DNA of 64,000 nucleotides. Origin: Bryobacterales bacterium. Its GTDB lineage: Bacteria; Acidobacteriota; Terriglobia; Bryobacterales; UBA6623. Below are positions 28,520 through 48,698 of the stretch, piece after piece. The notes below the pieces were generated by a model, which was given only the letters and a program-made list of their open reading frames with translations, did not search any database and was not told where the DNA came from. How positions within the stretch are numbered: position 1 is the stretch's first letter; each line of letters begins with the position of its first letter. A program made the position numbers and the translations under genes. The stretch lies in contig JAJDTX010000104.1 in assembly GCA_022826925.1 (NCBI GenBank), forward strand, positions 1-64,000. The letters are read 5' to 3'.

Positions 28520-30277
28520 TCATGGGGCGCTCTTGCCGAATCTCTCGGTCCGTACGATCCCCGCGCCCTCCTTGACGTAGATCAGCTGGTCAGAGCCCAC
28601 GCCCGAAAGTGTCTCTGACCCTGTGTTCGGCCATTCCACTCGGAGCGAGTCCACTTGGGTCGCCCGCCCAAGGCCGAAATGCAGTCGAAAATCATTCACG
28701 GACAGATAGCTGTCTTGGCTATGGACCTCCTGCACCTGTAACAGCCGCCCGGAACGAACGTAGACGCGTGCGCCGATCGCCGTACGGTTTGACGCCGTGC
28801 CAACGAGCTTTACCTTGAGCCAGTGGTTGGCCGAGCCGACATCGCACCGGATCAGCGAAGGCGGCTCGTTCATGTTCATCACCAAGACGTCCATGTCGCC
28901 ATCGTTGTCGAAATCGCCGAAGGCGCAGCCGCGGCTCGAGTGCGGCGCCGTGAGCCCCGGCCCGCACTGCTCTGTGACGTTGGCGAACAGCCCGTTCCCG
29001 AGGTTCCGAAACAGGAACCGCGGACCGCGGTACGGGTAGTCGGGATTGACCGCTTCAACCTCCGGATAGACGCTGCCAGCGACATAGAAGAGGTCAGCCC
29101 GGCCGTCGTTGTCAAAGTCGACCAGCCCCGCTCCCCACTCCAAGTGCCTGACGCTGGCTTGCAGTCCGGCCATCGACGACTCGTCTGAGAAATACCCGTC
29201 GCCGTCGTTGCGGTACAGGCCCGGGATGTCATCTGCGAAGTGGGTCTTGACAATGTCGAGCTTGCCATCGGATGAATAGTCCCCGATCGCCAGTCCCATG
29301 CCTGCCTGGGCCACGCCATCGGGGCTGTAGGCGAGTCCGCGTTCGGCCGCGATGTCGCTGAACGTGCCGTCCCTGTTGTTTCGCAGCAGGATGCTTGGGC
29401 TGGAGTCGCAGGCGAGGTAGATGTCGTGCCAGCCATCATCGTTGTAGTCCGTGTTCATCGCTGTCAGGCCGTAGCCCTGCAGGTCGCCGATCTGCGCATC
29501 TTCCGAAACGTCGGTGAACGTCCCGTCGCCGTTATTGCGGTATAGGATGTGCGACCCCTTGACCAAGCCTTGGGGGCCGTAGGCTACCGGCACGCCCTTC
29601 CAGGTGGTCCGACCCTTGGGCGGCAGATTCTCCAGGCTCTCGGCCCCGATGTAGTTCGCGACGAAGAGATCCAAGTGCCCATCCCTGTCGTAGTCGATGA
29701 ACGTGCAGCCGGTGCTCCAACTCCGCTGCTCTCCCCCAACGCCCGCTTCATCGGTCACGTCTGAGAAGGTCCCGTCGCCGTTATTGCGGTACAGGACGTT
29801 CTTTCCTCGGTAGGTGATGAACAAGTCATCAAATCCGTCGTTGTCGTAGTCTCCGATGCAGACGCCATTGGCCCAGCCGGTCTTGGTCAGGCCTGCTTCG
29901 CGAGTGACATCCGTGAAGGTCCCGTTGCGGTTGTTGCGGTATAGGCGATTCGTGGCGATGTCGTGATCTGGAATGCCGCTCCGACGCGAGCCGTTCAGCA
30001 GCAGGATGTCGAGCCAGCCGTCGTTGTCGTAGTCGTAGAAGGCTACTCCGCAGCCATTCGCCTCCGAGATATAGTCCGACGTGTCGGCCTCGCCGTAGTA
30101 GATTGTGCGAGTGAGGCCGGCCTCCTGTGCCACGTCGACAAAGCGAGCCCTGTACCCGCTCGTGCCGCCGCCCCTTGTGAACTCGCGCTCGGCCTCGCCC
30201 TCGATGCGCTGGCCCAGGGCGGAGGGGAGCGCCGCAACGCCCCAAGGCCACATTTTGAGGAGGCGTCGCCTTGTCAC
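28520..30277 (-). CDS. CRTAC1-type FG-GAP/ASPIC-UnbV protein (copy A)
   Basis: 585 residues. The start MTRRRLLKMWPWGVAALPSALG looks like a twin-arginine leader. The body is a VCBS/FG-GAP propeller with acidic metal-binding loops D-x-D-x-D-G repeated throughout (FYDYDNDGWLD, GDYDNDGFDD, IDYDRDGHLD, NTDYNDDGWHD, GDYSSDGKLD, VDFDNDGRAD, GDFDNDGDMD) and YRNNGDGTFTDVT-type linkers. The last 110 residues are ASPIC/UnbV (HWLKVKLVGTASNRTAIGAR, VQEVHSQDSYLSVNDFRLHF, VDSLRVEWP). Family function is unknown; an exported binding or adhesion-like role is inferred. It is closest to copy B and lacks the paired cysteines found in copies B, C and D (TTWKGVPVAYGPQG instead of CxWKG...CGPRG). It stands alone, divergent from the ankyrin gene. 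Confidence 0.9.
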   Translation of the reverse strand: MTRRRLLKMWPWGVAALPSALGQRIEGEAEREFTRGGGTSGYRARFVDVAQEAGLTRTIYYGEADTSDYISEANGCGVAFYDYDNDGWLDILLLNGSRRSGIPDHDIATNRLYRNNRNGTFTDVTREAGLTKTGWANGVCIGDYDNDGFDDLFITYRGKNVLYRNNGDGTFSDVTDEAGVGGEQRSWSTGCTFIDYDRDGHLDLFVANYIGAESLENLPPKGRTTWKGVPVAYGPQGLVKGSHILYRNNGDGTFTDVSEDAQIGDLQGYGLTAMNTDYNDDGWHDIYLACDSSPSILLRNNRDGTFSDIAAERGLAYSPDGVAQAGMGLAIGDYSSDGKLDIVKTHFADDIPGLYRNDGDGYFSDESSMAGLQASVRHLEWGAGLVDFDNDGRADLFYVAGSVYPEVEAVNPDYPYRGPRFLFRNLGNGLFANVTEQCGPGLTAPHSSRGCAFGDFDNDGDMDVLVMNMNEPPSLIRCDVGSANHWLKVKLVGTASNRTAIGARVYVRSGRLLQVQEVHSQDSYLSVNDFRLHFGLGRATQVDSLRVEWPNTGSETLSGVGSDQLIYVKEGAGIVRTERFGKSAP

Positions 30278-30392
30278 GGTTGGTAGAAAGCCCCGCGAGA
30301 GCCTTGCAAACGGACATGCCCCCGAGCGAGAATCTTGGCTTATCTTACCGGAGCGTCAAACGAGCAGTCTGATCTCAAGGGCCGGTTTGGGG

Positions 30393-33053
30393 ATGGTGGC
30401 CGCCATGCTGGCGATAGGCCACCTTACGCCGGCGTATTCGCAACGGCGCCTCGTGGACGTTGCTCTCTTGAGGGCTTCTGAGTCCGCAGACGCTCCGAGC
30501 GTCCGCCAGTTGCTCGAGCAGGGTGCCGAGATTGACGCCCGCAACGACCACGGCACGACGCCTCTGACGATTGCCGCGCTGGAGGGTCATCGGCCGGTCG
30601 TGAGGATTCTTATCTCCGCGGGCGCGGACATTCGGAGCACGGACGACCGCGGCATGACGGCCTTGATGGCCGCCGCCTCGGAGGGACACACGGAGATTGT
30701 CCGGGACCTGCTGAATGCGAGTGCGAATGCAAATACGCAGGATGACCAAGGCCGAACAGCTCTGATGCTGGCTGTCGGGGAAGTCCGGCTCGGCGCAGTC
30801 CGGGCGCTCTTGGAATCCGCAGATATTGACATCCGGAACGACGCAGGTCAGACCGCCCTTCTGATCGCGGCGGCTACTGGCCACGAGCCAGTGACCGAGG
30901 CGCTGATCGAAGCCGGTGCCAATCTGGGCCACGCTGACGACTCCGGGCAAACGCCCCTGATGGCCGCCGCGTTCCGGGGGCATTCCAGCGTGGTCGAAGC
31001 GCTGATAGGGGCAGGTGCGAACCTCGACGCCCGAGGCGCAGAGGGGGCGAGTGTCGCCGCCGCCGGCATGGAAATCCCAGTGGGGCGCGTGACCGCCCTG
31101 ATGCTCGCGGCAGCTAGGGGCGCGACTCCGGTCGTAACTGCGCTACTGAGGGCAGGCGCGACGACGGCAGCGAGATCGATCGATGGCCGTACCGCCCTTA
31201 TGTTCGCTGCGTCGAGCGGGCACACGGAGATCGTACGGCTATTGCTAGAGCACGGTTCTGAAATTGACGCCGTCGATGATCTCAAGGAGTCGGCTCTTGT
31301 CCAAGCGGCTTTGCTGGGGCACATCGACGTCGTGCAGGAGCTCAAGCGCCGGGGAGCGGCTTCCACGCCGAGCGAAGACCTTCTCTTCGCTGCGCGAGTC
31401 GGGGGGGCCGAAGAGGCCGAGGCCGCACTGTCAGGCGGCGCTGACCCCGATACCAGCGATAGCCGGGGCGTGACAGCCCTGATGATCGCATCCCTGCACG
31501 GCCACCTAGGGGTGGTTCGCTCACTGATTGCGAGAGACGCCGACATCAACCGCCAGAGCATGCCAGGGGCACCCGTCGCGGTCCAGAGCGGAACGTTGGA
31601 GGAAGGCGGGGTTTCTGCCCTTATGCTCGCTTCAACAGAAGGCCATCTTGGGATCGCAAAAGCGCTGCTGGCAGCGGGTGCCGACATTGCCTTGGCCAGC
31701 CCCGTCGGCTGGACAGCCCTGCTGATGGCCGCATGGGAAGGCCAGACAGCCGTTGTGGAGAGTCTTCTGGCAGCAGGAGCGGATCTCAACGCCCGCGGCG
31801 AAGGCGGTCGGACGCCACTAATCCTTGCCGTCTCCAAGGGATTGCCGACGATGGTCCGGATCCTGCTCGAAGCCGGTGCCGACATCGACGCCCAAGCTGA
31901 CGACGGCAGCACGGCGATCATGGTTGCTGTTTCATCAGGGGACCTCACGATGCTCCGGACCCTGCTGGCCGGCGACGCTGACTTGAACCTACCGTCGATC
32001 GACGGACGCACCGCATTGCTGGTCGCGGCCAGCAGGGGGGATGTAGCTGTCCTCGAAATGCTCACGACGGCGGGTGCCGAGGTGAGCGCCAGGATGCACG
32101 ACGGCAGGACGGCGCTCATGCTCGCCGCGGCCAGCGGACAGACTGATGCGATTCGATTCCTTCTGGACCATGGTGCGGAAGCGGGCAAGTCTGACGAGCG
32201 CGGCAGAACCGCGTTGGTGCATGCCGCCTTGGCCGGCCATGACCAAGCGGCATTGCTGCTCGAGAGCGCCGGGGCGGGCGAGGATCTAGATGAATTGCTG
32301 CGGATCGTCGCTGCCACCGGGCGGGCTGACAGAGTAGCGGGATTAGTGAGCGCGGGAGCCCAAGTCAATGGCCGTGACGCTGAGCGGAACACTCCGCTGA
32401 TGCTCGCCGCAGCTGCCGGCCACGCATCTGTAGTGGCCGAGCTCGTGGCCCGAGGGGCGGACGTGAACGCCGAAATGCCGGATGGAGGAACGGTTCTCAT
32501 GCTGGCGGCGGGCCAGAACCGGAGGGAAGCGGTGGAGGCCCTGTTGGAGAGCGGAGCCCGGCCGGATGCCCGCACGCCGGAGGGCCGAACAGCATTGATG
32601 ATGGCGTGCTTCGAAGGCTTCTCGACAACGGCTCAGACCCTGTTGGATCATGGTGCGAGCCCTGACCTCGCGGATACGTCGGGGGGCACGGCGCTCATGT
32701 TTGCCGCGGCCGAGGGGCACGCGGAAACGATCGAGGTACTGCTGGCCGGCGGGGCTGATCCGAACCTTAGGCGGGCCGATGGTGTCGCCCCGCTCATGTT
32801 GGCCTCATCCACAGGCACGCTTGGGGGCGTACGGCATCTCGTCGAAGCAGGCGCTGACCTCGCTGCCGCGGATTCGCGGGGCTTCACCGCGTTGCTCATT
32901 GCCGCCTCCCGCGGGCAGACGCTCGTCGTGGAGTATCTTCTCGCGCGAGGCGCCGACCCGCATGCGCGGACAGCTGCCGGGGAGACCGCGATCTCGCTTG
33001 CGGAGTCGAAAGGGTATCGCAGGACCGTGAGCCTGCTCTCGGACGGGCGCTGA
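30393..33053 (+). CDS. Long ankyrin-repeat protein (about 26 repeats), probably exported
   Basis: About 886 residues from ATG 30393, with a short hydrophobic leader (AAMLAIGHLTPAYS); the frame is open back to 30105 but that part runs antisense through copy A. The rest is almost wholly ankyrin units of 31-33 residues, of the form DGRTALMLAAASGQTDAIRF then LLDHGAEAG. I count about 26, with weaker units near the ends. Two units are interrupted by similar inserts of about 16 residues (near 31030-31090 and 31550-31610). No enzyme domain is attached, so it should be a protein-binding scaffold. The leader suggests a periplasmic site, but a cytoplasmic one is possible. It lies between CRTAC1-A and CRTAC1-B and ends in a hairpin shared with copy B. 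Confidence 0.9.
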   Translation: MVAAMLAIGHLTPAYSQRRLVDVALLRASESADAPSVRQLLEQGAEIDARNDHGTTPLTIAALEGHRPVVRILISAGADIRSTDDRGMTALMAAASEGHTEIVRDLLNASANANTQDDQGRTALMLAVGEVRLGAVRALLESADIDIRNDAGQTALLIAAATGHEPVTEALIEAGANLGHADDSGQTPLMAAAFRGHSSVVEALIGAGANLDARGAEGASVAAAGMEIPVGRVTALMLAAARGATPVVTALLRAGATTAARSIDGRTALMFAASSGHTEIVRLLLEHGSEIDAVDDLKESALVQAALLGHIDVVQELKRRGAASTPSEDLLFAARVGGAEEAEAALSGGADPDTSDSRGVTALMIASLHGHLGVVRSLIARDADINRQSMPGAPVAVQSGTLEEGGVSALMLASTEGHLGIAKALLAAGADIALASPVGWTALLMAAWEGQTAVVESLLAAGADLNARGEGGRTPLILAVSKGLPTMVRILLEAGADIDAQADDGSTAIMVAVSSGDLTMLRTLLAGDADLNLPSIDGRTALLVAASRGDVAVLEMLTTAGAEVSARMHDGRTALMLAAASGQTDAIRFLLDHGAEAGKSDERGRTALVHAALAGHDQAALLLESAGAGEDLDELLRIVAATGRADRVAGLVSAGAQVNGRDAERNTPLMLAAAAGHASVVAELVARGADVNAEMPDGGTVLMLAAGQNRREAVEALLESGARPDARTPEGRTALMMACFEGFSTTAQTLLDHGASPDLADTSGGTALMFAAAEGHAETIEVLLAGGADPNLRRADGVAPLMLASSTGTLGGVRHLVEAGADLAAADSRGFTALLIAASRGQTLVVEYLLARGADPHARTAAGETAISLAESKGYRRTVSLLSDGR

Positions 33054-33086
33054 GCGGCTGGCTGGGGTTCGCAGCCGGACCGCTCA
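33051..33086. terminator. Stop-to-stop bidirectional terminator hairpin
   Basis: Bases 33051-33064 (TGAGCGGCTGGCTG) pair with 33072-33086 (CAGCCGGACCGCTCA): 14 base pairs with one G-T pair and one bulged A, loop GGGTTCG. The 5' arm begins with the TGA of the ankyrin gene and the 3' arm ends with the complement of the TGA of CRTAC1-B, so the stem runs exactly from one stop codon to the other. It is a strong candidate for termination in both directions, although no T-tract follows. Confidence 0.7.
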
Positions 33087-34838
33087 CAACGTTACCGAAC
33101 GAACGATTCCGTTGCCCTCCTCGATATGGAGAAGGCGATCAGCGGGCAGCTCGCGGAATTGTTCGCGCAGCCCGTTCGGCCAGCGGACGCTTAGCTCGTC
33201 GACCTTGGAGTTCGAGCCGAGGCCGAAATGCAGCCGTAGGTCGTTGACCGAGTAATAGCTGGACTGGCTCTGCACCTCCTGCACCTGCCGCCGCCCTCCG
33301 GCCTGCAGCTCAATCCGGGCACCGATCGCCGTCCGGTTTGACTCGACGCCGAACAGCTTGACCTTGAGCCAGTGATTGCCTGTGGAGACATCCGCCCGGA
33401 TCAGGGATGGCGGTTCATTCATGTTCATGACCACGACGTCCAAGTCTCCGTCGTTATCGAAGTCGCCGAAGGCGCAGCCTCTACTCGAGTGCGGCGTCGT
33501 CAGGCCGCTGCCGCACTGGTCGGTGACGTTAGCGAACGAGCCGTCTCGCATGTTGCGGAACAAGAACCTCGGCCCGCGATAGGGATAGCGGGGATTGAAT
33601 CGTTCCACCCTCGGGAAGAGGTTCCCAACGGAATAGAACAGGTCCGGCCAGCTGTCGTTGTCGAAGTCCACCAGTCCCGTGCCCCACTGGATGTGCTGCG
33701 TCACGACATGCAGGCCCGCCGCTACCGACATGTCGGCGAAGGTCCCGTTGCCGAAATTCCTGTACAGCGCGGGCATCTCGTCCGCGAACAGGGTCTTGAC
33801 AATGTCAAGCTTTCCGTCCCCGTCATAGTCGCCGGTTGCCAGGCCCATTCCGGCCTGTTCCCGCCCATCCTCGCTATAGGCAACTCCGCACTCGACCGCG
33901 ATGTCTGTGAACGTGCCGTCGCGGTTGTTTCGGTACAGGATGCTCGGAGTGGAATCGCAGGCCACATAGATATCCGGCCAGCCGTCCTCGTTGACATCCG
34001 TCACGAGCGCGGTCATGCCGTAGTACCCGTGCGGGTTGTGCATCCCGGCCTCCTCGCTCACGTCGGAGAACGTGCCGTCGCCATTGTTGCGATACAGGTA
34101 GTTCTTCGTGCCCGGCATCCCGCGCGGACCGCAAAAGACCGGAACACCCTTCCATTCGCAGTTGTTGCCCTGGCCCGGCAGGGGAACCCTCTCAAGGTCG
34201 ATGTCCACGTAGTTCGAAACGAACAGGTCTAGGTGCCCGTCACGGTCGTAATCGACAAAGGTCGCGCCCGCGTTCCAGCGATCCGGGAAGCCGCTTAGCC
34301 CGGCCTCTTCGGTGACGTCGGAGAATGTGCCGTCGCCGTTGTTGCGGTACAGGACGTTCTGGCCCCAGTAGGTGACGAAGAGATCGTCGTTGCCGTCGTT
34401 GTCGAAGTCCCCGATGCAGACGCTGTTAGCCCAGCCGGATCGGACCAGTCCGGCTTCTTCGGTGACGTCGGAGAACGTGCCGTCGCGGTTGTTCTTGTAG
34501 AGGCGGTTCGTCGGCGTCGCTCCCGCTGGAAGGCCGTCAAGCCGAGTTCCGTTCAAGACGAAGATGTCTAGCCATCCGTCGCTGTCGTAGTCGTAGAACG
34601 CCACGCCGCAGCCATTTGCTTCGACTATGTAGCGCACCTGCTCGCTGCTGCCGTAGTAGACCGTATCCGTCAGGCCAGCGTCCTTGGCAACGTCTGTGAA
34701 TTGCACCCCATACGGCGTGTCCGGCACGGATTCCGAAGTTGCGCCCAGCAGGCCGCCGCTGGCGACGGACGCCCACCCTGCCGCGCCTGCGGCAGTGCCG
34801 AGCTTCAGCAGGCGCCGTCGGGACAGGATCACGATCAC
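33084..34838 (-). CDS. CRTAC1-type FG-GAP/ASPIC-UnbV protein (copy B)
   Basis: 584 residues with a twin-arginine leader (SRRRLLKLGTAAGAAGWASV). The FG-GAP propeller carries the same D-x-D-x-D-G loops as copy A (FYDYDSDGWLD, GDFDNDGNDD, VDYDRDGHLD, TDVNEDGWPD, GDYDGDGKLD, VDFDNDSWPD, GDFDNDGDLD), and the C-terminus is ASPIC/UnbV (HWLKVKLFGVESNRTAIGAR, QSQSSYYSVNDLRLHFGLG). A central loop has two cysteines, NCEWKGVPVFCGPRG, likely disulfide-bonded. It is the most similar relative of copy A (long identical stretches such as ANGCGVAFYDYD and VLYRNNGDGTFSDVT). It is the last gene of the minus-strand run; its ATG overlaps the TGA of copy C (ATGA). Confidence 0.92.
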   Translation of the reverse strand: MIVILSRRRLLKLGTAAGAAGWASVASGGLLGATSESVPDTPYGVQFTDVAKDAGLTDTVYYGSSEQVRYIVEANGCGVAFYDYDSDGWLDIFVLNGTRLDGLPAGATPTNRLYKNNRDGTFSDVTEEAGLVRSGWANSVCIGDFDNDGNDDLFVTYWGQNVLYRNNGDGTFSDVTEEAGLSGFPDRWNAGATFVDYDRDGHLDLFVSNYVDIDLERVPLPGQGNNCEWKGVPVFCGPRGMPGTKNYLYRNNGDGTFSDVSEEAGMHNPHGYYGMTALVTDVNEDGWPDIYVACDSTPSILYRNNRDGTFTDIAVECGVAYSEDGREQAGMGLATGDYDGDGKLDIVKTLFADEMPALYRNFGNGTFADMSVAAGLHVVTQHIQWGTGLVDFDNDSWPDLFYSVGNLFPRVERFNPRYPYRGPRFLFRNMRDGSFANVTDQCGSGLTTPHSSRGCAFGDFDNDGDLDVVVMNMNEPPSLIRADVSTGNHWLKVKLFGVESNRTAIGARIELQAGGRRQVQEVQSQSSYYSVNDLRLHFGLGSNSKVDELSVRWPNGLREQFRELPADRLLHIEEGNGIVRSVTL

Positions 34839-36544
34839 TCCGCCGGGATGCTTGGCGAGCGCGCCGTGATGCCCTCGCCCTCGGTGATTTCCAGGAATTG
34901 GTTGGCAGACAGATCTGTGAGCGTGTTGCGGGATGAGTGCGAGGGCCAGTCCACGACGACCGTCTGCACCTTGGCGCTGTCTCCCAGCCCGAAATGCAGC
35001 CTCAGGTCGTTGCTCGACAGGTAGCTGGAACCCGACCGGACTTCTTGGACCAGAACCCTGGCATCCGCGCGCACCGTCACGCGAGCGCCGATCGCGCTAC
35101 GGTTGGACTTGGTTCCGACCAGCCGCAGCGAAAGGAACCCACCGGCAGGGGTGGAGTCGTTGCGCAGGAGACTCGGGCGTTCGTTCATGTTGTTCACGAA
35201 TATGTCCGTGTCGCCATCGTTGTCATAGTCCCCGACGGCTACCCCGCGGCTTGAATGCCTGGCCAGCAAGGCCGATCCGTCCGGCGGCTGGACCGGCTCG
35301 AGGCCTTGCCCGCCGAGATTCCTGTACAGCAGCCGAGTCTGGCGATAGGGATTGTTGGGAACGAGCCCTTCGAGTTCCGGGTAGGTGTGTCCGTTCGCAA
35401 CGAAGATATCGGGCCAAGAATCGCGGTCGAAATCAAGGGCTGCGACGCCCCAGCCCATATAGTCGGCGCTGATGCCCGCGCCCATGGAATGCACCCTGTC
35501 CTCGAATGCCCCCGCCGCCGAGTTGAGGTAGATGTTCGAGGTCTCTTCGATGAAATTGGTCTTGACGATGTCGAGAAGGCCGTCGCCATCGATATCCGCA
35601 GCTGCCGACCCCATGCCGGCCTGCACGTGGCCATGCTCGTCGAGCGCCACTCCGGCGAAGACCCCCACATCCGCGAAGGAGCCGTTTCCGTCGTTCTCAA
35701 GCAGCATGCTGGGTTGCGAATCTACCGCGACGAACACGTCCGGCCAGCCGTCGAGATTGTAGTCCAGCGACGTGACTGACAGCGAGTAACGTCCCGGGCC
35801 ATCGGCTACGCCAGATGCCTGCGAGACCTCTTCAAACCGGCTGCCGCCGAGGTTGCGGTACAACTGGTTGGTCTCTCCCGGCAAGCCTCGAGGGCCGCAC
35901 AGCACAGCCTGCCCCTTCCATCGGCAGGTAGGCGCGCTGCCCTTTGATGGGACGCGGTCCTTGTCGAACACCAAGTAGTTTGCGACGAACAGGTCGAGCA
36001 GGCCGTCAAGATCGTAATCGAGGAACGCGCACCCGGTTGACCAGCGCATTTCCCCGCCAAGGCCTGATTCCTGGGTGACGTCTGCGAACCGCCCTTGACG
36101 AGTGTTGCGGAACAGTCGGTTCTCGCCGAAGTACGTGACAAACAGGTCATCGAAGCCGTCGTTGTCAACGTCTCCGACACAGACGCCCTGCCCCCATCCG
36201 GCGCTTTGCAATCCGGTCGGGTCTGTGACGTCGGCAAAGGTGCCGTCTCCGTTGTTGCGGTATAGGCGGTTGCTGGGAGCCTCGCCGGGAGGGAAGCCCT
36301 CGAATGTGGTGGCAGAGACAAAGAATGCGTCGAGCGATCCGTCGCGGTCGTAGTCTAGGAGGGCCAGTCCGGAGCCGATCGCCTCCAAGATGAAGTCCTT
36401 GCGGTCGTCTCGACCACTGTGGAAGACATCGTTCAGGCCGACGTCCGCCGCGACATCAACGAATGCGACCTGCCCGGCTTCGGCGGGCGCAGCCCACGCC
36501 GAGGCCGCCAGAACGAGAGCGATGGTCAGTCGCGGCACGGGCAC
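34835..36544 (-). CDS. CRTAC1-type FG-GAP/ASPIC-UnbV protein (copy C)
   Basis: About 569 residues if translation starts at the GTG at 36544, which gives a Sec signal (LTIALVLAASAWAAPAEAG), has AGGA just upstream and leaves a 7-base gap to the TPR stop; the frame is open to 36613 inside the TPR gene. FG-GAP loops include LDYDRDGSLD, GDVDNDGFDD, LDYDLDGLLD, LDYNLDGWPD, ADIDGDGLLD, LDFDRDSWPD and GDYDNDGDTD. The two-cysteine loop TCRWKGQAVLCGPRG is present, and the ASPIC/UnbV tail is LRLVGTKSNRSAIGARVTV and SGSSYLSSNDLRLHFGLGD. It is more divergent than A and B and lacks several of their other cysteines. Co-transcription with the TPR and cytochrome genes is very likely. Confidence 0.9.
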   Translation of the reverse strand: MPVPRLTIALVLAASAWAAPAEAGQVAFVDVAADVGLNDVFHSGRDDRKDFILEAIGSGLALLDYDRDGSLDAFFVSATTFEGFPPGEAPSNRLYRNNGDGTFADVTDPTGLQSAGWGQGVCVGDVDNDGFDDLFVTYFGENRLFRNTRQGRFADVTQESGLGGEMRWSTGCAFLDYDLDGLLDLFVANYLVFDKDRVPSKGSAPTCRWKGQAVLCGPRGLPGETNQLYRNLGGSRFEEVSQASGVADGPGRYSLSVTSLDYNLDGWPDVFVAVDSQPSMLLENDGNGSFADVGVFAGVALDEHGHVQAGMGSAAADIDGDGLLDIVKTNFIEETSNIYLNSAAGAFEDRVHSMGAGISADYMGWGVAALDFDRDSWPDIFVANGHTYPELEGLVPNNPYRQTRLLYRNLGGQGLEPVQPPDGSALLARHSSRGVAVGDYDNDGDTDIFVNNMNERPSLLRNDSTPAGGFLSLRLVGTKSNRSAIGARVTVRADARVLVQEVRSGSSYLSSNDLRLHFGLGDSAKVQTVVVDWPSHSSRNTLTDLSANQFLEITEGEGITARSPSIPAE

Positions 36545-36551
36545 GGGAATC

Positions 36552-38450
36552 CTAGCGCTCGCCGGGCGCAGATCCGGGCGCCTCCTTCTTTCGAAGCCGC
36601 TGGATCCTGGCATTACGCGTTCGCCTTGCCTCGTCTTCGTTTCGCTTAAACAGCTGGAACTGCTGCTGCGCCAAGTCGCTCTGCCCGAGTTGACGGTACA
36701 GCCGCGCCAGCACGTAGCGCGCGCGGTTCAGCGCCGGATCCAACTCCACTGCCAGCAGATACGCCTGCACAGCGTCCTCCCATCGCTCGAGCAGCTCGTA
36801 AGCCCTGCCCAAATCCGACCGAACGTCTGCGTCTTCAGGGTCGGCCGCGGCTGCGGCCGTCAAGTACGGCAGGGCCATTTCGCCCTCGCGCAATTGGACG
36901 TGGATTCTCCCCAGCCGCTTCTTGGCGGCTCCCGAATGCGGGTGAATCTCGAGCTCGTCCAGGCACGCTTGCCGCGCTTGGTCGTACTGCGAGTTCCAGA
37001 GGTAATAGTCCGCGAGTTCGATGCGGATCTGGGTGTCGAGCGGGCAGGCCTCGATTGCCGCGAGGAACTCGGCTTCAGCCTCGGCCTTTTCCTGTGCCGC
37101 GAAGTTCATCGCCCTGACCAGCCGCGCCCGGCACGAGCCGGGGTGCTCGCGCACCAGCGAGTCGAAGTACTCAAGCGCGACTTGCCGGAACACCTCTGCC
37201 CTAAATGTCTGGACGGCCTGCAAGGGACTAGCCGAGAGAGACTGATCGTTGGCCGCGAGAGCCGCTGACTTGTAGTCGTCGAGCCAGACGTGAACGGTCA
37301 TCTTCAGGTATTCGCGCAGCCATTCATCCCCTGTGTCGCTGAGTCGCTCAAGCACCGCGAGGGCATCTTCGAAGCGCCCCTCGATGACCGCTTGGGTGAC
37401 TTGCGCCCAGTCGGCTGACGCAGAGCCGTCGAGACGCGCGAGCAGCGTTGCATTGATCTCACGACCCACCATTGGCATGGGGGGCAAGCGTTCAGGATCG
37501 ACAGCAGGCAACGACCGCAGGATGCCCTCGAACTCCACCTTCGTCCCGATCTCGGCGACCTGCTCCTTTGGCAGCATGCTCTTATCGATCGGCATCTTGG
37601 GTACGGCAGGGAGCAGGCTCCAATAGCGTTCCAGCGCGAGCCTCGAAGGAACATCGAGCCCCAAGATTGCGAGCATGCGGGCAAGGGGAAAGAATATGGA
37701 CGCGTTGAACGGGTCCAGTTCCGCTGCTTCGAGATACTTGATCGCCGCCACTTGAAAGACCTGCTGGCTCTCGAACACCCGGGCGGCTGCGAGGTGAGTC
37801 TCCTTTGATTCCGGGTGCGACACCGCCTGCTCGTTCGCAATCCTCTCGGCGAGATCGAGGTAGGCCTGTCCAATGGAATAGAGCACGTTAGGAGCCTCGT
37901 CCCCGGCCATCGGTAGCGCCCGCCCGAAAGCTTGGATGGCTTCCCCGTAGCGGAGATTGGCAGCGTATGCCTGCCCAAGGTGCAGTGCGGTCTCGAAGGT
38001 TTGCTGCAGCCCGTGAGCGGTCTCCAGATGCGGGAGGGCCTCTTCCGGGCGCTCGACATTGAGGTACGAGACGCCCAAGTACAGCCGGCTACCGACCATC
38101 GCCCTGTCGATCTCGATACCCGACTCGAAAGCCTCGATTGCATTCAGGTAGTCGCCTTGGTAGTAGTAGACCAACCCCAGGTTGTGATAAACCCTGGGCA
38201 CTGCCGTCGGGTATCGACGCAGGATCGCGCGGTACTCCGATGCAGCACCTGCAAGTTCCCCCTGCTGTTCGAGACTCTTGGCAGCGCGGAAATGAGTCTC
38301 GATGAGCTCGTAGTCAGCTGGCGCGAGGCGAGCTTGCTGCGCACCTGCCACCACCGTTGCAGCTAGCAAGGCAATCGTGAGGCGGCGGGATCCGGGTGAT
38401 GGCCTTGCCGGCTTGGCGGGACTCAGCCGGATGTCGAGTGCGCGAGCCAT
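36552..38450 (-). CDS. Exported TPR-repeat protein (632 aa)
   Basis: 632 residues. A basic N-terminus and hydrophobic stretch (RRLTIALLAATVVAGAQQ, about 22-39) act as a signal peptide or anchor. TPR units follow through most of the length, e.g. PRVYHNLGLVYYYQGDYLNA, IEAFESGIEIDRAMVGSRLY, ETALHLGQAYAANLRYGEAI and, near the C-terminus, DVRSDLGRAYELLERWEDAV. The end is highly charged (KRNEDEARRTRNARIQRLRK). It starts 8 bases after the stop of the seven-haem cytochrome and ends 7 bases before CRTAC1-C, so it links the two in one transcript. Cytochrome c554-type domains and TPRs are often fused in one protein in this group of bacteria; here they are separate genes. It would be a scaffold for the exported complex. 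Confidence 0.88.
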   Translation of the reverse strand: MARALDIRLSPAKPARPSPGSRRLTIALLAATVVAGAQQARLAPADYELIETHFRAAKSLEQQGELAGAASEYRAILRRYPTAVPRVYHNLGLVYYYQGDYLNAIEAFESGIEIDRAMVGSRLYLGVSYLNVERPEEALPHLETAHGLQQTFETALHLGQAYAANLRYGEAIQAFGRALPMAGDEAPNVLYSIGQAYLDLAERIANEQAVSHPESKETHLAAARVFESQQVFQVAAIKYLEAAELDPFNASIFFPLARMLAILGLDVPSRLALERYWSLLPAVPKMPIDKSMLPKEQVAEIGTKVEFEGILRSLPAVDPERLPPMPMVGREINATLLARLDGSASADWAQVTQAVIEGRFEDALAVLERLSDTGDEWLREYLKMTVHVWLDDYKSAALAANDQSLSASPLQAVQTFRAEVFRQVALEYFDSLVREHPGSCRARLVRAMNFAAQEKAEAEAEFLAAIEACPLDTQIRIELADYYLWNSQYDQARQACLDELEIHPHSGAAKKRLGRIHVQLREGEMALPYLTAAAAADPEDADVRSDLGRAYELLERWEDAVQAYLLAVELDPALNRARYVLARLYRQLGQSDLAQQQFQLFKRNEDEARRTRNARIQRLRKKEAPGSAPGER

Positions 38451-38458
38451 AGGGGCTG

Positions 38459-39631
38459 CTACCTCACGACTCGGATCCAGTGGTCACTGAACAGGGAGTG
38501 CCGCATCACGCGTTCTGTCGGCATGTGGCAACTTGCGCAATTCGCCGATGCCACAGGGCAGACTGTGCCATTCTCGCGCACGGCCGTGTCGTGACACGAG
38601 AGGCACGACTCGTCGAAGGAGGCCGCCTCGTCCGCAACGTCGTGATGCGGGTCGTGGCACCTCGTGCACGCGAGCTCTCCGAAAGTCTCGTTGAAACAAC
38701 GGCTTAAGACGATGCGCTGGCTGGGGAAGCGGACGCTGTGCGGGGTCTGTTCCAGCAGGGCCAAAGCGTCAAAATCATTGTCCCGCGGCGGGTTTCCGTG
38801 GCATGCCCCGCACATTTGTGCTTGCTGGAATCCTGACAGCGCGATGGGGTTGAAGATCGATCCGTCCACGGACTCACCATTCATCGCGGCTTCGACGTGT
38901 GTCCGGCCCGGGCCGTGGCAGCGCTCGCAGCGAATCCCCATTTCGTCCGCCGAGGGAGCCGGGGAGTGTCCGTCGTATCCGGTTGTGTGGCAGCCGAAGC
39001 ATTCAACCACCTCCTCGGTGGTCAGTCCCCGCCCGAGGCCCTCGACAGCATTCTGCGGGTCGTACTTCGACGCCCCGGTGGTGAAGTCTATCGCACCGAG
39101 ACTCTCATACCAGGTCAACCGGCTCTCCACCCAGCCGCTGGCGTTGGTGCGGCCAATGGGCGTGATCCCCTTCGTTCCGCTGCCGAAGGCCCACTCGAGC
39201 ACGGCCCCGCTCGATTCCTCGGCATCGGCCGCTTCGAGCCGGATCGCGCCCCGAGAGTTGTCGGAGAGTGTCAGCGTGAAGCCCGAAACGCGGTCAAATC
39301 GACTGAACGGCAGGGAGCTCGCAAGTTCCGGCACCAAGCCAGCCCGCCGAAGGGAGCGAGCGTGGTTGCTCAGGCTCTGGCTGGAATAGATGTCCTGGTG
39401 GCAAGCCTTGCAGGCCTGAGAACCGCTGTACTCGGACTCGTGTTGCCAGAATCGCACCGGATCGCTCAGCTGCATTGTCTGTCCGGCTCCGCAGGCTGCC
39501 ACAAGCCCGGACAACAACGCGCCCCGGAAGGCCAGCCGAATGCATCTGAATCGGACTGCTGCCAGCGCCCTTCGCGCGCGCGCACGCAGCTCCAGCCGCT
39601 CACGTTCCGACGACCTGCCATGTGCAGCCAC
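38459..39631 (-). CDS. Seven-haem c-type cytochrome (cytochrome c554-like), probable lipoprotein
   Basis: I count seven CxxCH haem-binding motifs: CKACH, CFGCH, CERCH, CGACH, CTRCH, CLSCH and CASCH. The spacing and surroundings (GSQACKACHQDIYSSQSLSNHA, GIRCERCHGPGRTHVEAA, ELACTRCHDPHHD, NCASCHMPTERVMRHSLFSD) resemble the cytochrome c554/multihaem family. The leader LLSGLVAACGAG gives a lipobox cysteine, so it is likely membrane-anchored on the outside. Start choice is uncertain: GTG 39631 avoids overlap with the DUF1501 gene; the frame is open to 39703. No catalytic haem pattern is evident, so I infer electron transfer. It stands between the DUF1501 gene (16 bases) and the TPR gene (8 bases). 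Confidence 0.88.
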   Translation of the reverse strand: MAAHGRSSERERLELRARARRALAAVRFRCIRLAFRGALLSGLVAACGAGQTMQLSDPVRFWQHESEYSGSQACKACHQDIYSSQSLSNHARSLRRAGLVPELASSLPFSRFDRVSGFTLTLSDNSRGAIRLEAADAEESSGAVLEWAFGSGTKGITPIGRTNASGWVESRLTWYESLGAIDFTTGASKYDPQNAVEGLGRGLTTEEVVECFGCHTTGYDGHSPAPSADEMGIRCERCHGPGRTHVEAAMNGESVDGSIFNPIALSGFQQAQMCGACHGNPPRDNDFDALALLEQTPHSVRFPSQRIVLSRCFNETFGELACTRCHDPHHDVADEAASFDESCLSCHDTAVRENGTVCPVASANCASCHMPTERVMRHSLFSDHWIRVVR

Positions 39632-39647: not shown

Positions 39648-41312
39648 CTACACGCCGTTCGCGAGCATAAAGGGCAAGTGGGACGATTCGTTCCTGCCGG
39701 CACCCTTTGGGTCCACTCCGGCCAGCTTGAGCGCCGTGGAATAGATATGGCCGTGATTCGGCATGATGAACCCGTTCGACGGCTCGCTATAACCGTTCCG
39801 GAAATGCCCGTCGCGGTCGTAGCGCGGATCCAGATCCCCGGTCAGCGGGTGGATGGGGATCGGCTGGAACGTCTTCTGCCCGACCCATCCGAACTGTGTG
39901 CCACGGCGGACGCGCGGGCCGAGGAACGCGCAAGAATTGACCGGGTTGTGGGCGCTAATGTCTTGGGAGAGGATCTGTGTTCTTTTCTCGGCCTGGTCCA
40001 AGTCTGAATTCGCGAGGATACTCTTGATGCTGCCTCCCACGGTCCTTCCGAACTCGCTGGCCAGCACAATGGTCGTGAAGTCGTAATAGGATTTCCCCGT
40101 GTTTCTGTACTCGGTCTCCTTGAGTTTTCTCACGAACGTCTTGAGCGGAGTCCAGAGCTCGTTGCGCATCATTTCCCGTTGGTCGAACGGGTAGCCGGAG
40201 AGGATCTTCTCGCGGGACCAGTGATGGTCGAATCCTCGGACCAGGCGGTTCTCGAGCCACCCTGCACAGCTCAGGCCCTTGGTCATCATCTCGAACATCA
40301 TCATGGCCTGCACGTTGATGTTGGGGGTGTACTTGCTGCGCGGCAGGGTCTGGTTGATGAGTTCGAAGTGGATTTCCTCGTCACTTGGGTCGACCCGGAA
40401 TTCCTCTCTCAGTCCCGGGTCGAGGAACATTGACCGGGTGTCGATGCTTCGGTCGCCGCTCTCGCTGAGCCGCTTGTAGATGTCCAAGGCCGACGCGAAG
40501 CTCTGGAGTTCCGGGCTGTTTTGATCGGCGAGCAGGGCACTGCGAGACTGCTCTAGGAAACTCTGGACGGAGTGGTTGCGCTCGTCAGTGCGCATCGAGA
40601 CCGCCTGTTGGATCATTCGCCGGGTGAACTTCGGTGTCTGCGGGTAGATCATGTGCGCCCAAGGGGGCCCGAGCGCATGGTAAATCCCCGTGCCCTCCGG
40701 ATAGGCTGCGATGTCGAGCTCGCCATCGGACAGCCACCTGTGCCAGTTCAGGTTGGGCAGCAGGTACGGTCGTCCCGCCTCTGCGCAGAAGGCCTGTAGG
40801 ACAGTTCGCTCGTCCGGTTCCCGCCTAGCCTTCATATCCACGGCGTACTGGCCGTAGTGGGCCTTGAAACGGTCCCGGGTGTGCCCGCTTCCCGTCAGGG
40901 CGCTGGAGAGGATCGCCATCTCCCCGAACAGTTCCCGGCCGTCTTCCGCCAGCGGGCCGTGAAAGATCTCGCCGTAACGGCGGAACTGCTCGGCAGACAG
41001 ATCCTTGGTGCGGTAAATGTGTTCCGAGAGCACGCCCCAATCGTCTGGATTCCTGGGAAGGTCTGAGAAGTTGGCATCGTTGCGGGCAGGAACGACCGGG
41101 CCGAACATGTCATAGCTCATCCAGGCCCCTTCCATGAACCAGTAGACGAGGAAGCGAGGCTGCGACGCCTCTTTGGCATGATCCTTGACCGCGCCTGCCA
41201 ACGCGGGGCTGACAGAGTCCAGGCCCCCGCTAAGCCAGTAGCTGAGGAAGTCGGTGGCTGCGAGGGCACCGGCCGCGCGGGCGCCTCTGGACAGGAACTT
41301 CCTCCGCTTCAT
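39648..41312 (-). CDS. Tat-exported DUF1501 protein (alkaline-phosphatase-like fold)
   Basis: 554 residues from ATG 41312, with the twin-arginine signal MKRRKFLSRGARAAGALAAT. Motifs RFLVYWFMEGAWMSYDMFGP, SEHIYRTKDLSAEQFRRYGE, SSALTGSGHTRDRFKAHYGQ, the central VQAMMMFEMMTKGLSCAGWL and GFDHHWSREKILSGY, and the late TTIVLASEFGRTVGG and FIMPNHGHIYSTALKLAGVD fit DUF1501, a member of the alkaline-phosphatase/sulfatase superfamily. DUF1501 genes are classically paired with planctomycete-type cytochrome (PSCyt/PSD1) genes, as here: the upstream gene on the same strand carries PSCyt-like and DUF1588-like parts. No function is established. The intergenic gap to that gene (185 bases) contains an 11-bp inverted repeat. 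Confidence 0.85.
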   Translation of the reverse strand: MKRRKFLSRGARAAGALAATDFLSYWLSGGLDSVSPALAGAVKDHAKEASQPRFLVYWFMEGAWMSYDMFGPVVPARNDANFSDLPRNPDDWGVLSEHIYRTKDLSAEQFRRYGEIFHGPLAEDGRELFGEMAILSSALTGSGHTRDRFKAHYGQYAVDMKARREPDERTVLQAFCAEAGRPYLLPNLNWHRWLSDGELDIAAYPEGTGIYHALGPPWAHMIYPQTPKFTRRMIQQAVSMRTDERNHSVQSFLEQSRSALLADQNSPELQSFASALDIYKRLSESGDRSIDTRSMFLDPGLREEFRVDPSDEEIHFELINQTLPRSKYTPNINVQAMMMFEMMTKGLSCAGWLENRLVRGFDHHWSREKILSGYPFDQREMMRNELWTPLKTFVRKLKETEYRNTGKSYYDFTTIVLASEFGRTVGGSIKSILANSDLDQAEKRTQILSQDISAHNPVNSCAFLGPRVRRGTQFGWVGQKTFQPIPIHPLTGDLDPRYDRDGHFRNGYSEPSNGFIMPNHGHIYSTALKLAGVDPKGAGRNESSHLPFMLANGV

Positions 41313-41416
41313 TGCTTGTTCGAACCTCAACCCCGCCGGGCGTCGGTTCGATTATAGGCTGGGCGCCCCGCGCGCTCAAGCACCTCCGGGGGGATTGACT
41401 GCATGCACGGGGAGTT

Positions 41417-41497: not shown

Positions 41498-44400
41498 TCA
41501 GGGGCTGCGCGGCTGGCCTCCGAATCGCATCGTTACCATCCGCTTGACGAGTGGACGGATTCGCAAGTCAGTGGAGACGGCGAAATCGTAGAGCGCCTTG
41601 TACTCATCTCTTTGGTCTTGGTATACGCGCAGTGGGCGATGGAACAGCATGTCGTGATGATGGTTGATGAATGCCCGCACGAACCGCTCCTTGCGAACCA
41701 CTTGGGAGGCGAACGCGCTGAGGCCATCTCCTTTGAACGGATAGTCTGGAACGACGCCCCGGTCGCTGTCGTCAATCGGCTGGTGGTCGTCATCCACGGT
41801 GCGGTAGTGCCCGTGGACATCCCAACGCTCTCTCTGATAGGCCAGGGGCGTTAGCAACTTGTGGCAGGAGTAGCAAATGCTGCTGGGATCCGTCGTGCTG
41901 ACGACTTCGTCGCGGGCATCTTCAACCGCGTCGGACACCTCGAATTGCACGCCCAAGGCGAATGTCAGCACTTGGGCGGGATAGGTGAACTTCGGAAGGC
42001 CCGGCTTGCCTTCCAAATAGCCCTCCATCGTCAGGAATCCGGTGGGGCCGTGCACGGGTCGGCGCTCGATCCTGCGCCAATCCGGACCGACCGTGTAGTC
42101 GGCGGTAAACAGCTCTCGATAGGACACGTCGTTCGTCGCGATGTAGGTCCAGAGCCGCGCCGGTTCGTCGCTCGCCGGCGTGCCGCGCGACCGGAATACT
42201 CCGCGGGCGCGATGGAAGAAAAACTCCCGAAATTCCTCGGACGACAGATAGTCGTCGATCAAGGGCTCGATCTGCCCACCCCTCGAGAAGCGCCGCAGCT
42301 CGTCGTTGGTCGGAATTCTCCCCACCAGGTCGAGCGCAATCCGGACGAGCTTCCGTGCAGGCGTCGCGTTCTGGCTGTCGGTCGGCATCACGAACTCGGG
42401 ATGCTGAAGCAGGGCTTCAATCAGCCCTGCCCAGCCGGGGCGAGGAGATTGCAGCGAGGGCACGGCAAAGCGGGGTGTCGGCGTGGCAGCGCCTTCAATG
42501 CGGAGACCGAGGTCGCTGGCGTCGTGGGTCCAGCGGAACGACAGCTGTTTGCCCCCGGGATGGTAGGTCCCGGTGGCATTGAGGAGCGCGGTCTCGCCAA
42601 CATTGAAAGTCGGCGGCGCCTCCACGAACGCCACGGGAGCAAACGAACTTCCATGAACGTCGAACGGGACCCAATCGGCATGGGTGTGCCCTCCGGGCGT
42701 CCACACGTGCACGCTGTACCATCCAGGGCGGTACTCCCCGCCTTGCACGGGCCGGTAGCGGGCCCAGACTCGCTTGGAGGGATCGACAGTCTGATCCTTG
42801 ATGGGTTCCCCGCTGTTGGCGGGAGGGTAGTGCAAGATATCCTCGCCGTACATCCGGCCCCGGCCTGGCAGGTTGCGCACGAGCTTGTCGGCAGCCCAGC
42901 CGCTGGAAGCCTCGAAGGCGTGTTCCGAGGAGTTGTCCACCACTATTTCCTGCCCACCGCCAAGCGGGACAAACTTCACTGCGTCGGCCACGATGACCTT
43001 GGACGCGGAATCCACCCCTCGGTTGCTGACTTCGACGAAGTCGCCCGGCCCTTCGAGCAGGACCTTTGCGAGGATCAGTTCCCACTGCGTCTCACCCTTC
43101 TCGTCAAGCGTGCTCTCGGACTGGTCCAGGAACGTCGTTGCAAAGCCCGGCGCCCGCCGCCTGTCTTGTGTGCCGGAGCTGGCCGCCACGCTCGCTGAAT
43201 GAATTTCCACCAGCGCCGAGGTTGCTGCGCGGGGGACCCTCGGCCAGCTCAGGTAGACGTTGTACTCGCCGTCTTCCGGTATTCGCAGCGCGACAGTGGC
43301 AGATGCCAAGCGGTTATCCACGGTGCGCCGCTCCAGGTGGTTGCTTCCCACCACATCGAGATCCATGTCGTACTTCTTCTTTGGCTCGCCCGCCCGGCTG
43401 CGCTCCCCGTCCTTTGCGACCGGCTCCCACTCGCCGGAAAACGTACATTCGGGGTCGAGATTGTCGAGGACGACCGCCTCATCCGATTCGATGCCGTTGA
43501 GGACCCGCACGAATCGCACGGCATCAAAGACCGTTATGTGGTTTCCGGGGCGGGCCACCAGGCGAACGAGGTGATCAGGATTGGAAGACTCGAAGGCGAA
43601 GGGGCGGTCTCCCACGCGAACCCACGGACTGCTGTCCGGCTCCGAAGTCTGGTCAATCAAGTAACGCGACACGGAAGCCTTGGCAGAGTCGAGGGCAACG
43701 TCGACTTGGCGGCGATCCCGGCGTCCATCGGGATCCTCGACGTTGAGGGTGAAGCGCACGATTCTGCGGTCCTCGGCCCGGCCCTGGAGGTCTCTCACCA
43801 AGTGCAAGGCCTGGTCAATCTCAGCCTCGGATGGCTTGGAGAAGAGAATCCGCTGGTAGAGCGTCCGCACGTTGCGGACGGCGGCCCGTCTTGCACGGTC
43901 AACGAAGATGTCCGGATCGAATCCTTCGAAGAGGACCCCGCCCGGGGCCGAAACGAAGCGCCGTGCCAGTTCGCGCGCGATTTCTTGCAGGCCGGAGACA
44001 TAGCTCGCGGTCATCGTGCGGGTCTGGTCGAAACTGCTGCGGAAGTCCGCCCCGCCCAATGCTTGAGCTTTGTTGCTGAACAGGTCGTCCCCGGAGGCGG
44101 CGAGCCATTCGGGTCCGAAGAGGGTCTCAACGGACCGCCTGATCTGGAAATAGCTCAGGCGGCGCTGTGCCCGGTCCGACTGTTCCTTTCCGTCGAACGG
44201 GAGCAGGAGGCTGCTAGGAAACCGTTCGTCAGGTTGATCGCCGGCACCTAGGCTCTCGCGATCCAGCCTTACAGCTAGGTCTCTGGCAAACCCTGCGATG
44301 TTGGCGATCTCGGAGTCGTCCAGAGCGCCGGACTTCGGCATGCGCAGGTCAGGATCCTGACTTCCTACTCGGCTAGGGATCGCCATCGGATCCGAGGGGT

Positions 44401-44668
44401 CCAGCAATCCCTGTTCCAGCATCAGGCTGAAGGTGGCATTGGGCGACTCGAGAACCTGAAAAGTCTGCGACGCTTGAGCGCTATGGCATAGCTTGCAGCC
44501 ATTGGCGCTGCGTGCGAGCACGGGATAGATCTCCGTTCGAAAGCGCTCAGCAAGCTGCGCAAGCGAGCTAGTGCGGTCTACAGGCGCGCTAAGGGCCCCC
44601 GGGACTGTGGCAAGGAGGGCCAACGTCCAAGCCGCGCCGGTGGCGAGCAAACGCGTCCGAACTTGCAT
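41498..44668 (-). CDS. Exported PSCyt1 / golvesin-like / DUF1588-like fusion protein with two haem motifs
   Basis: 1056 residues with a Sec signal (AAWTLALLATVPGALSAP). N-terminal cytochrome-like part: RFRTEIYPVLARSANGCKLC and CH at 58-62, as in planctomycete cytochrome PSCyt1. Residues about 420-580 contain a beta-rich golvesin-like carbohydrate/peptide-binding pattern (GEYNVYLSWPRVPRAATSAL, ASKVIVADAVKFVPLGG), with an earlier partial match (HITVFDAVRFVRV). Then a PSCyt2/DUF1549-like stretch (ALDLVGRIPTNDELRRFS, DDYLSSEEFREFFFHRARG) and a C-terminal DUF1588/DUF1585-like part with SICYSCHKLLTPLAYQRERW (haem motif near 934-938). It heads the minus-strand run that continues with DUF1501. It resembles a fusion of proteins usually seen as DUF1549-, DUF1588- and DUF1592-type cytochrome partners. 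Reaction unknown. Confidence 0.75.
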   Translation of the reverse strand: MQVRTRLLATGAAWTLALLATVPGALSAPVDRTSSLAQLAERFRTEIYPVLARSANGCKLCHSAQASQTFQVLESPNATFSLMLEQGLLDPSDPMAIPSRVGSQDPDLRMPKSGALDDSEIANIAGFARDLAVRLDRESLGAGDQPDERFPSSLLLPFDGKEQSDRAQRRLSYFQIRRSVETLFGPEWLAASGDDLFSNKAQALGGADFRSSFDQTRTMTASYVSGLQEIARELARRFVSAPGGVLFEGFDPDIFVDRARRAAVRNVRTLYQRILFSKPSEAEIDQALHLVRDLQGRAEDRRIVRFTLNVEDPDGRRDRRQVDVALDSAKASVSRYLIDQTSEPDSSPWVRVGDRPFAFESSNPDHLVRLVARPGNHITVFDAVRFVRVLNGIESDEAVVLDNLDPECTFSGEWEPVAKDGERSRAGEPKKKYDMDLDVVGSNHLERRTVDNRLASATVALRIPEDGEYNVYLSWPRVPRAATSALVEIHSASVAASSGTQDRRRAPGFATTFLDQSESTLDEKGETQWELILAKVLLEGPGDFVEVSNRGVDSASKVIVADAVKFVPLGGGQEIVVDNSSEHAFEASSGWAADKLVRNLPGRGRMYGEDILHYPPANSGEPIKDQTVDPSKRVWARYRPVQGGEYRPGWYSVHVWTPGGHTHADWVPFDVHGSSFAPVAFVEAPPTFNVGETALLNATGTYHPGGKQLSFRWTHDASDLGLRIEGAATPTPRFAVPSLQSPRPGWAGLIEALLQHPEFVMPTDSQNATPARKLVRIALDLVGRIPTNDELRRFSRGGQIEPLIDDYLSSEEFREFFFHRARGVFRSRGTPASDEPARLWTYIATNDVSYRELFTADYTVGPDWRRIERRPVHGPTGFLTMEGYLEGKPGLPKFTYPAQVLTFALGVQFEVSDAVEDARDEVVSTTDPSSICYSCHKLLTPLAYQRERWDVHGHYRTVDDDHQPIDDSDRGVVPDYPFKGDGLSAFASQVVRKERFVRAFINHHHDMLFHRPLRVYQDQRDEYKALYDFAVSTDLRIRPLVKRMVTMRFGGQPRSP

Positions 44669-45732: not shown

Positions 45733-46800
45733 CTAGTCGGGAAAGGGTCGCGACTGCACGGCCTCTAGAAAGGCTGGGTTCTGGCGCCGCAGCTTCAGCG
45801 ACAGTTCCTTCTCCTCGCGCGCCTTGGCCCGATCGCGCAGCCGGAAATGGACTTGTGAGAGCAGCAGGTGCGGCTGCGGATGGCGCGGCTCCAGCTCCAC
45901 CGCGGCATCTAGGGCGTCGAGGGCTGCTTCCCAGTCCTTCAGGCCGATGTGTGCGCGGGCCAGGGCGATCCGGGCAGGCATGTAGTCGGACCGGAGTTCG
46001 ATAGCCCTTTGCAGCGGTGCCAAGGCATCTGCGTACCGCGCCTGCTTGACGAGCCAATCGCCGTAGAAGAAGTGCGGTTCCTCGTAACCCGGGTCGAGTT
46101 CCATGGCGCGGCGGAGCAGCGGCAGTGCCTCGTCAAAGCGACCATCCTTTTGCAGGTGCCACGCAAGCTCGAAATTGGCGCGCGCCGAGTCGGGGAATCG
46201 CTTGGCGGCCTGCGATGCTAGGCCGAGTCCGTCGCTGAGGTTGCCGGCTTCCCGCAGAGCGTGAATCGTCATGTAGTGCAAGTCTTCGATCCCGGGCTGT
46301 AGCCGCAGCGCCCGCGCGGCGACTTCGGCAGCCTCGCGGTGATAGCGCCCCTTGCCGTACTCCACCGCCATGATCTGCATGAGTTTGAAGTGGTCGGGTC
46401 TTAGCTCGAGCGCGTTCCGCCAGGCCTGCAGGGCTTCGTCGCCCCGTCCGAGCTTCTGTGCGACCACGCCGCGCAGGTAGTGGGCGTTGAAGTCGTCCGG
46501 GTTGGACGCCGTCGCGCGCGCCAGCACTGGCGCGGCCTGTTCGAACTGGCCCGCCGAGAAGTGCATGTAGCCGAGATTGAATAACGCGGGGAAGTAGTCC
46601 GGGGACGCCTCTAGCGCTTGCCGCCAGAGCTTGGCCGCCTCTTGTGGCTGGCCGCCTTGAGCGAGAGCGAGCCCGCGGTCGGTCAGTGCGGCCGCGTCAC
46701 CCGCTTGCGCTAGGGCCGCGATCGGAACGGCCGCCGCGAGAATCCCCGCTAGCGCCGCGACCGCGCGGCAGGGCGCAATTCCGGGCTCGCTGGCTGTCAT
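45733..46800 (-). CDS. Exported TPR-repeat protein (355 aa)
   Basis: 355 residues. Signal peptide VAALAGILAAAVPIAALAQAG (about 14-34). The rest is consecutive TPR units, about nine, e.g. AAALTDRGLALAQGGQPQEA, FPALFNLGYMHFSAGQFEQA, FNAHYLRGVVAQKLGRGDEA, ANFELAWHLQKDGRFDEALP and MPARIALARAHIGLKDWEAA. It is a scaffold in the periplasm. Its ATG overlaps the TGA of CRTAC1-D (ATGA), so the two are translationally coupled and likely work together. This pair repeats the TPR/CRTAC1 neighbourhood seen at 34.8-38.5 kb with the gene order reversed. Confidence 0.9.
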   Translation of the reverse strand: MTASEPGIAPCRAVAALAGILAAAVPIAALAQAGDAAALTDRGLALAQGGQPQEAAKLWRQALEASPDYFPALFNLGYMHFSAGQFEQAAPVLARATASNPDDFNAHYLRGVVAQKLGRGDEALQAWRNALELRPDHFKLMQIMAVEYGKGRYHREAAEVAARALRLQPGIEDLHYMTIHALREAGNLSDGLGLASQAAKRFPDSARANFELAWHLQKDGRFDEALPLLRRAMELDPGYEEPHFFYGDWLVKQARYADALAPLQRAIELRSDYMPARIALARAHIGLKDWEAALDALDAAVELEPRHPQPHLLLSQVHFRLRDRAKAREEKELSLKLRRQNPAFLEAVQSRPFPD

Positions 46801-48548: not shown

Positions 48549-48698
48549 AGTGCAACCGGAAACGGCTCGAATCCTGAGTATGGCACAGCCTTCAGGCGTC
48601 AATGTCCGCAGCGAAGCGGTCGCACCTGCTCCGCTTCAGCCCCTTGTCGGGGGATCCCGCTGGCCATGCCGGGCCCCTTGGCTTGCCGCCGCATGCGG

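Follow-up and report, generated by a model that had tools for sequence, protein, structure and literature searches.

A heptaheme cytochrome and a TPR protein as probable exported partners in a Bryobacterales bacterium

The gene pair and its nearest described precedent

In a system covered by a review (PMC3601427), a periplasmic tetratricopeptide repeat (TPR) protein, NrfG/CcmI, is encoded with a NrfA-type c-type cytochrome and is proposed to bind it; CcmH and CcmI form a single fused protein in some genera but are two proteins in most. This is the nearest described precedent for the gene pair studied here, whose products are a c-type cytochrome with seven hemes and a TPR protein. The pair lies on a 64,000-nucleotide stretch of contig JAJDTX010000104.1 (assembly GCA_022826925.1) from a Bryobacterales bacterium of the Acidobacteriota, hereafter the window. 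The likeness has limits: the window TPR protein is far larger, and the window cytochrome has seven CXXCH motifs and no full-length match to NrfA. The TPR protein scored 19 bits against NrfG (cut-off 306) and 20.2 bits against TPR_CcmH_CycH (cut-off 42), which places it outside both model-defined families. Our searches of an open-access library listed no paper that described cytochrome-TPR fusions or this gene set, judged by titles and opening abstracts.

On balance, we consider it probable that the two genes encode exported partners, a heptaheme cytochrome and a TPR solenoid dedicated to this cytochrome alone, which share one mRNA and are passed on as a pair, most likely bind each other in a redox assembly with CRTAC1-type proteins, and have been separate since the ancestor of their clade. 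Binding would take place either in the periplasm or on the outer membrane, the TPR protein would act as a scaffold holding the cytochrome in the redox assembly, and the neighbouring CRTAC1-type proteins would be a third partner. Obligate co-occurrence and gene linkage lend good support to joint action of the two products; the position of the gene boundary, from which the preliminary description of this DNA had argued that they bind each other, does not. The partnership stands on the former grounds, and direct binding is what we infer from it.

Both genes lie on the reverse strand. The cytochrome gene occupies positions 38459 to 39631 if read from an in-frame GTG at 39631, the start chosen in the preliminary description; the GTG at 39703 given by the open reading frame (ORF) lister would create a 56-nucleotide overlap with the upstream gene, which disappears with the shorter form. 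The frame stops at 38459, and the protein ends in CASCHMPTERVMRHSLFSDHWIRVVR, that is, in SDHWIRVVR; the motif previously quoted does lie at the C terminus, although the quotation fell short of the last five residues, IRVVR. An 8-nucleotide spacer (38451 to 38458) leads to the gene for the 632-residue TPR protein (36552 to 38450), which begins with ATG at 38450 in a different reading frame and has a signal-like hydrophobic stretch at its N terminus. The gap of eight bases and the separate leader are thus as first described. At the other orthologous loci the spacer runs from about −14 to +32 nucleotides, varying with the choice of start.

The cytochrome exceeds the gathering score of Pfam Cytochrome_C554 (PF13435; 33.6 bits, cut-off 20.8), over residues 228–264 only, and also matches Cytochrome_C7; with its several CXXCH motifs it qualifies as c554-like, and its predicted activity, judged from the heme motifs alone, is electron transfer. 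A lipobox-like VAAC in the window protein suggested a lipoprotein anchor, which we rejected since it is absent from most relatives. A Protein Data Bank (PDB) search with a profile of 13 cytochromes gave local matches over heme-binding stretches of up to 51 bits, including 6r2q, 6i5b, 6qvm, MccA, cytochrome c554 and octaheme nitrite reductases, but no match of the whole cytochrome to any solved PDB chain, the best stretches covering at most about 125 of 323 positions; the likeness to these multiheme folds is local and does not extend to full length. A structure model of the cytochrome from a five-sequence alignment was unusable (mean predicted local distance difference test, pLDDT, 43.8). The TPR protein (Pfam TPR_2, 85 bits) was modelled as all-helical (pLDDT 66.0, predicted template modelling score 0.37), with two confident helical-repeat blocks (about 41–180 and 460–610) and a low-confidence middle between them.

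Co-occurrence and linkage of the two genes

Searching 100 genomes, we found cytochrome orthologs (E ≤ 1e-100; next match 1.1e-57) at 15 loci in 12 genomes, the window's own included. At all 15 loci a separate TPR gene lies directly downstream, across a range in which cytochrome identity falls to 47% and TPR identity to about 35%. TPR orthologs (E ≤ 1e-40, with at most the best 12 candidates per genome fully scored) occur in 13 genomes, namely all 12 that carry the cytochrome and G056, in which the gene sits at a contig end, the match starting with base 4. The co-occurrence is obligate and holds copy for copy: numbers of the two genes are equal in 12 of 12 genomes, three of which (G008, G068 and G084) have two of each, and in both same-genus genomes without a cytochrome ortholog, G003 and G005, no TPR ortholog was found. 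One locus, L061, keeps the cytochrome-TPR link and beyond it has only a convergent CRTAC1 paralog of 36% identity.

A related signal appears beyond the window clade. Among stand-alone cytochromes outside it, 19 of 58 have a same-strand TPR neighbour within 250 nucleotides, compared with 13 of 353 control genes, and 10 of 58 have a CRTAC1 neighbour, compared with 9 of 353. The controls were drawn from the same loci, already rich in TPR and CRTAC1 genes, and the gene calls are crude (one of the 14 window-clade rows was lost to them) and the rows related, so that we give no p-value. Because the two genes co-occur copy for copy and TPR neighbours are enriched over controls, we conclude that cytochrome and TPR protein belong together.

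Fused homologues and the cytochrome-TPR junction

The preliminary description had read the pair as a known fusion that came apart into two genes. Single polypeptides in which a cytochrome with CHMP...DHxI precedes TPRs do exist in this phylum and in this very genome. The latter encodes five remote single-polypeptide homologues of the window cytochrome, three of which (L012, L014 and L016; 25–28% identity) have the expected order, the TPR matches of L014 lying below Pfam cut-offs; the other two (L013 and L015) have the opposite one, the cytochrome coming after an N-terminal part whose TPR matches are weak and sub-threshold. The evidence does not support a derivation of the window pair from such a fusion. 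In a quick tree built with IQ-TREE from 107 cytochrome domains, whose root is uncertain (the outgroup does not fall on one side of a branch) and many of whose forks are open, the window cytochrome belongs to a clade of 14 rows (Shimodaira–Hasegawa-like approximate likelihood ratio test, SH-aLRT, 100) with no fused member, and the neighbouring clades are mostly stand-alone. Three loci truncated by contig ends were left out of this tree, L188, L200 and L059, the last being the one orthologous locus absent from the window clade; so was L013, which has eight hemes in another spacing, and L015 did not figure among the rows scored. Fused rows comprise the remote ones and two groups that we call class A and class B; they fall in several separate clades, with four changes of the fused label on the tree. 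Class A (L109–L113, with a TPR_12-type tail in L109, the one scanned) sits inside a mostly stand-alone clade (support 97).

The TPR tails of the fusions point the same way. We built a profile from 11 TPR proteins of the window family, so that members score high by construction (15 members, 826–1084 bits) and the telling contrast sets fused tails against the remaining TPR proteins. Ranks 16–73 went to other TPR proteins without a heptaheme domain (at most 159 bits), and the best cytochrome-fused tail came only at rank 74, scoring 48 bits across some 90 residues. The other matches in the window's own genome at E ≤ 1e-8, on contigs C45, C8 and C87, include no fused tail. The fused tails are thus not orthologous to the window TPR protein, and at 15 of 15 orthologous loci the genes are separate.

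Class B is a sister family in which a heptaheme cytochrome is followed first by a PpiC parvulin domain and then by TPRs; in 21 of 23 tree rows all three make up a single chain of about 630 residues (fused loci L114–L118, L185–L187, L189–L199, L203 and L204). At L116 and L191, a second short heptaheme gene adjoins the fusion. At E ≤ 1e-45, 24 of the 257 genomes searched in the order have a class B cytochrome; we examined 22 of 32 listed matches and three loci from a phylum search with the whole fused protein, which fully scored the best three candidates per genome and was followed by an order-wide search with the cytochrome part alone. Class B resembles the window pair in its seven hemes, its DHWIRV cytochrome end, the TPRs that follow and related CRTAC1 genes at some loci; it differs in the inserted parvulin, in being mostly one polypeptide, in a cytochrome only about 28% identical and in TPRs that are not orthologous. 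A Pfam scan found no Rotamase match in either window protein. Two class B loci are split (L201, 3378–6769; L202, 1443–4883), the cytochrome ending in DHWIRVVRR before a parvulin-TPR gene with its own leader. Genome G271 has both forms, the split L202 and a fused copy (L203, 595–2547) that runs through DHWIRVVPALG into the parvulin, so that the boundary falls at the same DHWIRVV column in both. The two split loci group on a branch of their own (support 100) within the class B clade, which is compatible with both fission and an ancestral split state. The expected match of junctions between fused and split forms thus holds in the sister family, while the window clade has no fused member to compare.

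Does the position of the boundary speak for a partnership? In an alignment of 13 cytochromes the histidine of DHxI is invariant, and we predict from this that it is a heme ligand, so that the cytochrome domain would end just past it. Tails beyond the last CXXCH are short in all unfused groups: the median is 28 residues with a TPR gene downstream (21 rows), 34 with one upstream (13 rows), 35 with no TPR neighbour (39 rows; one outlier of 195, probably L190_5415) and 27 in the split class B cytochromes (2 rows). The gene boundary is the plain end of a cytochrome domain, found likewise in homologues that have no TPR neighbour, and we dropped junction position as evidence for partnership.

Neighbouring genes and rival explanations

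The pair sits among other genes of the same strand. Downstream lies a gene for a CRTAC1-type protein (FG-GAP plus UnbV/ASPIC; 34835 to 36613), whose start, as called, overlaps the TPR stop by 62 nucleotides and whose counterpart adjoins the pair in most orthologous loci; a second CRTAC1-type gene (33084 to 34838) overlaps it by 4 nucleotides. Upstream, a gene at 39648 to 41330 encodes a protein with a twin-arginine-like leader and no match in Pfam and NCBIfam scans, and lies beside the pair in close relatives only. Further upstream lies a gene for a large PSCyt2/PSCyt3-like protein (41498 to 44668; PSCyt matches weak and below cut-offs, Golvesin_C above cut-off), kept at this place in near relatives only. 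Elsewhere in the window, a second TPR-CRTAC1 pair with a 4-nucleotide overlap (45733–48602) has no adjoining cytochrome, and a 982-residue ORF at 30105–33053 presumably encodes an ankyrin-repeat protein, by its repeat pattern. The genome has 26 UnbV/ASPIC matches, many with adjoining TPR genes, and two CRTAC1-like ORFs that contain TPRs; at L223 (3185–10864), a 925-residue ORF with five CXXCH motifs and TPRs is flanked by a CRTAC1 gene on one side and a further ORF that contains TPRs on the other. When 66 CRTAC1 proteins were placed in a tree, all 18 rows belonging to the upstream-TPR clade were separated by a branch with support 100 from 21 of 22 window-clade rows and 7 of 8 class B rows, although long branches meet there and we use this as a hint only. 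Some class B fusions adjoin CRTAC1 genes of the window's CRTAC1 subtree.

Several observations weigh against the partnership proposed here. Adjacency and co-occurrence would also fit co-regulation without contact, the 12 cytochrome-bearing genomes are related (nine from one genus), distant TPR orthologs could be missed when only the best 12 candidates per genome are scored, and 39 of the 58 stand-alone relatives have no TPR neighbour by the crude gene call. Among the alternatives, the one we take most seriously, while still thinking it unlikely, is a role in maturation, in which the TPR protein, like NrfG/CcmI, would bind the apocytochrome, perhaps at its conserved DHWIRVV end, and deliver it to the heme-attachment machinery while staying outside the working complex. 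The parvulin, a folding domain, that class B places between cytochrome and TPRs would suit such a role. Yet the window protein is a 632-residue exported protein whose NrfG and TPR_CcmH_CycH matches are sub-threshold, the neighbours scanned against Pfam include no heme-lyase family match, and in the fused proteins the TPRs stay in the cytochrome's own chain.

It is improbable, in our view, that the TPR protein is chiefly a partner of CRTAC1 proteins and the cytochrome merely co-transcribed. Its nearest relatives in the same genome (C45, C8 and C87) do lie beside or near CRTAC1 genes with no adjoining stand-alone cytochrome, and the window holds the cytochrome-less TPR-CRTAC1 pair described above; however, bar one contig-end copy, the window TPR subfamily was found only with the window-type cytochrome in the 100 genomes searched, and L061 keeps this link though the close CRTAC1 gene is gone. 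Slightly more doubtful still is the gene fission originally proposed, in which an ancestral cytochrome-TPR fusion split at its domain junction. The shared order of fusions in the same genome and the common DHWIRVV column of split and fused class B forms are what such an event would leave, but with a well-supported clade devoid of fusions amid mostly stand-alone neighbours, a best fused tail at 48 bits as compared with at least 826 for family members, and a class B tail that opens with a parvulin domain absent from the window TPR protein, the fission reading of the window pair is largely refuted.

Beyond the pair itself, it is tempting to speculate, more tentatively, that CRTAC1-type proteins join a heptaheme cytochrome and its dedicated TPR solenoid in one modular complex, an exported redox system of this acidobacterial order that is encoded by separate genes or by cytochrome-TPR or cytochrome-parvulin-TPR fusions depending on the lineage, with the window representing the never-fused form. 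The cytochrome-parvulin-TPR architecture turned up here in both fused and split form, and the case illustrates how a real linkage signal can be told apart from a domain-junction coincidence. The pair offers a sharp prediction of a protein-protein partnership for families whose physiology is unknown, in acidobacteria that are poorly cultured, and, if true, the modular redox complex would place bacterial CRTAC1-type proteins in a biochemical setting.
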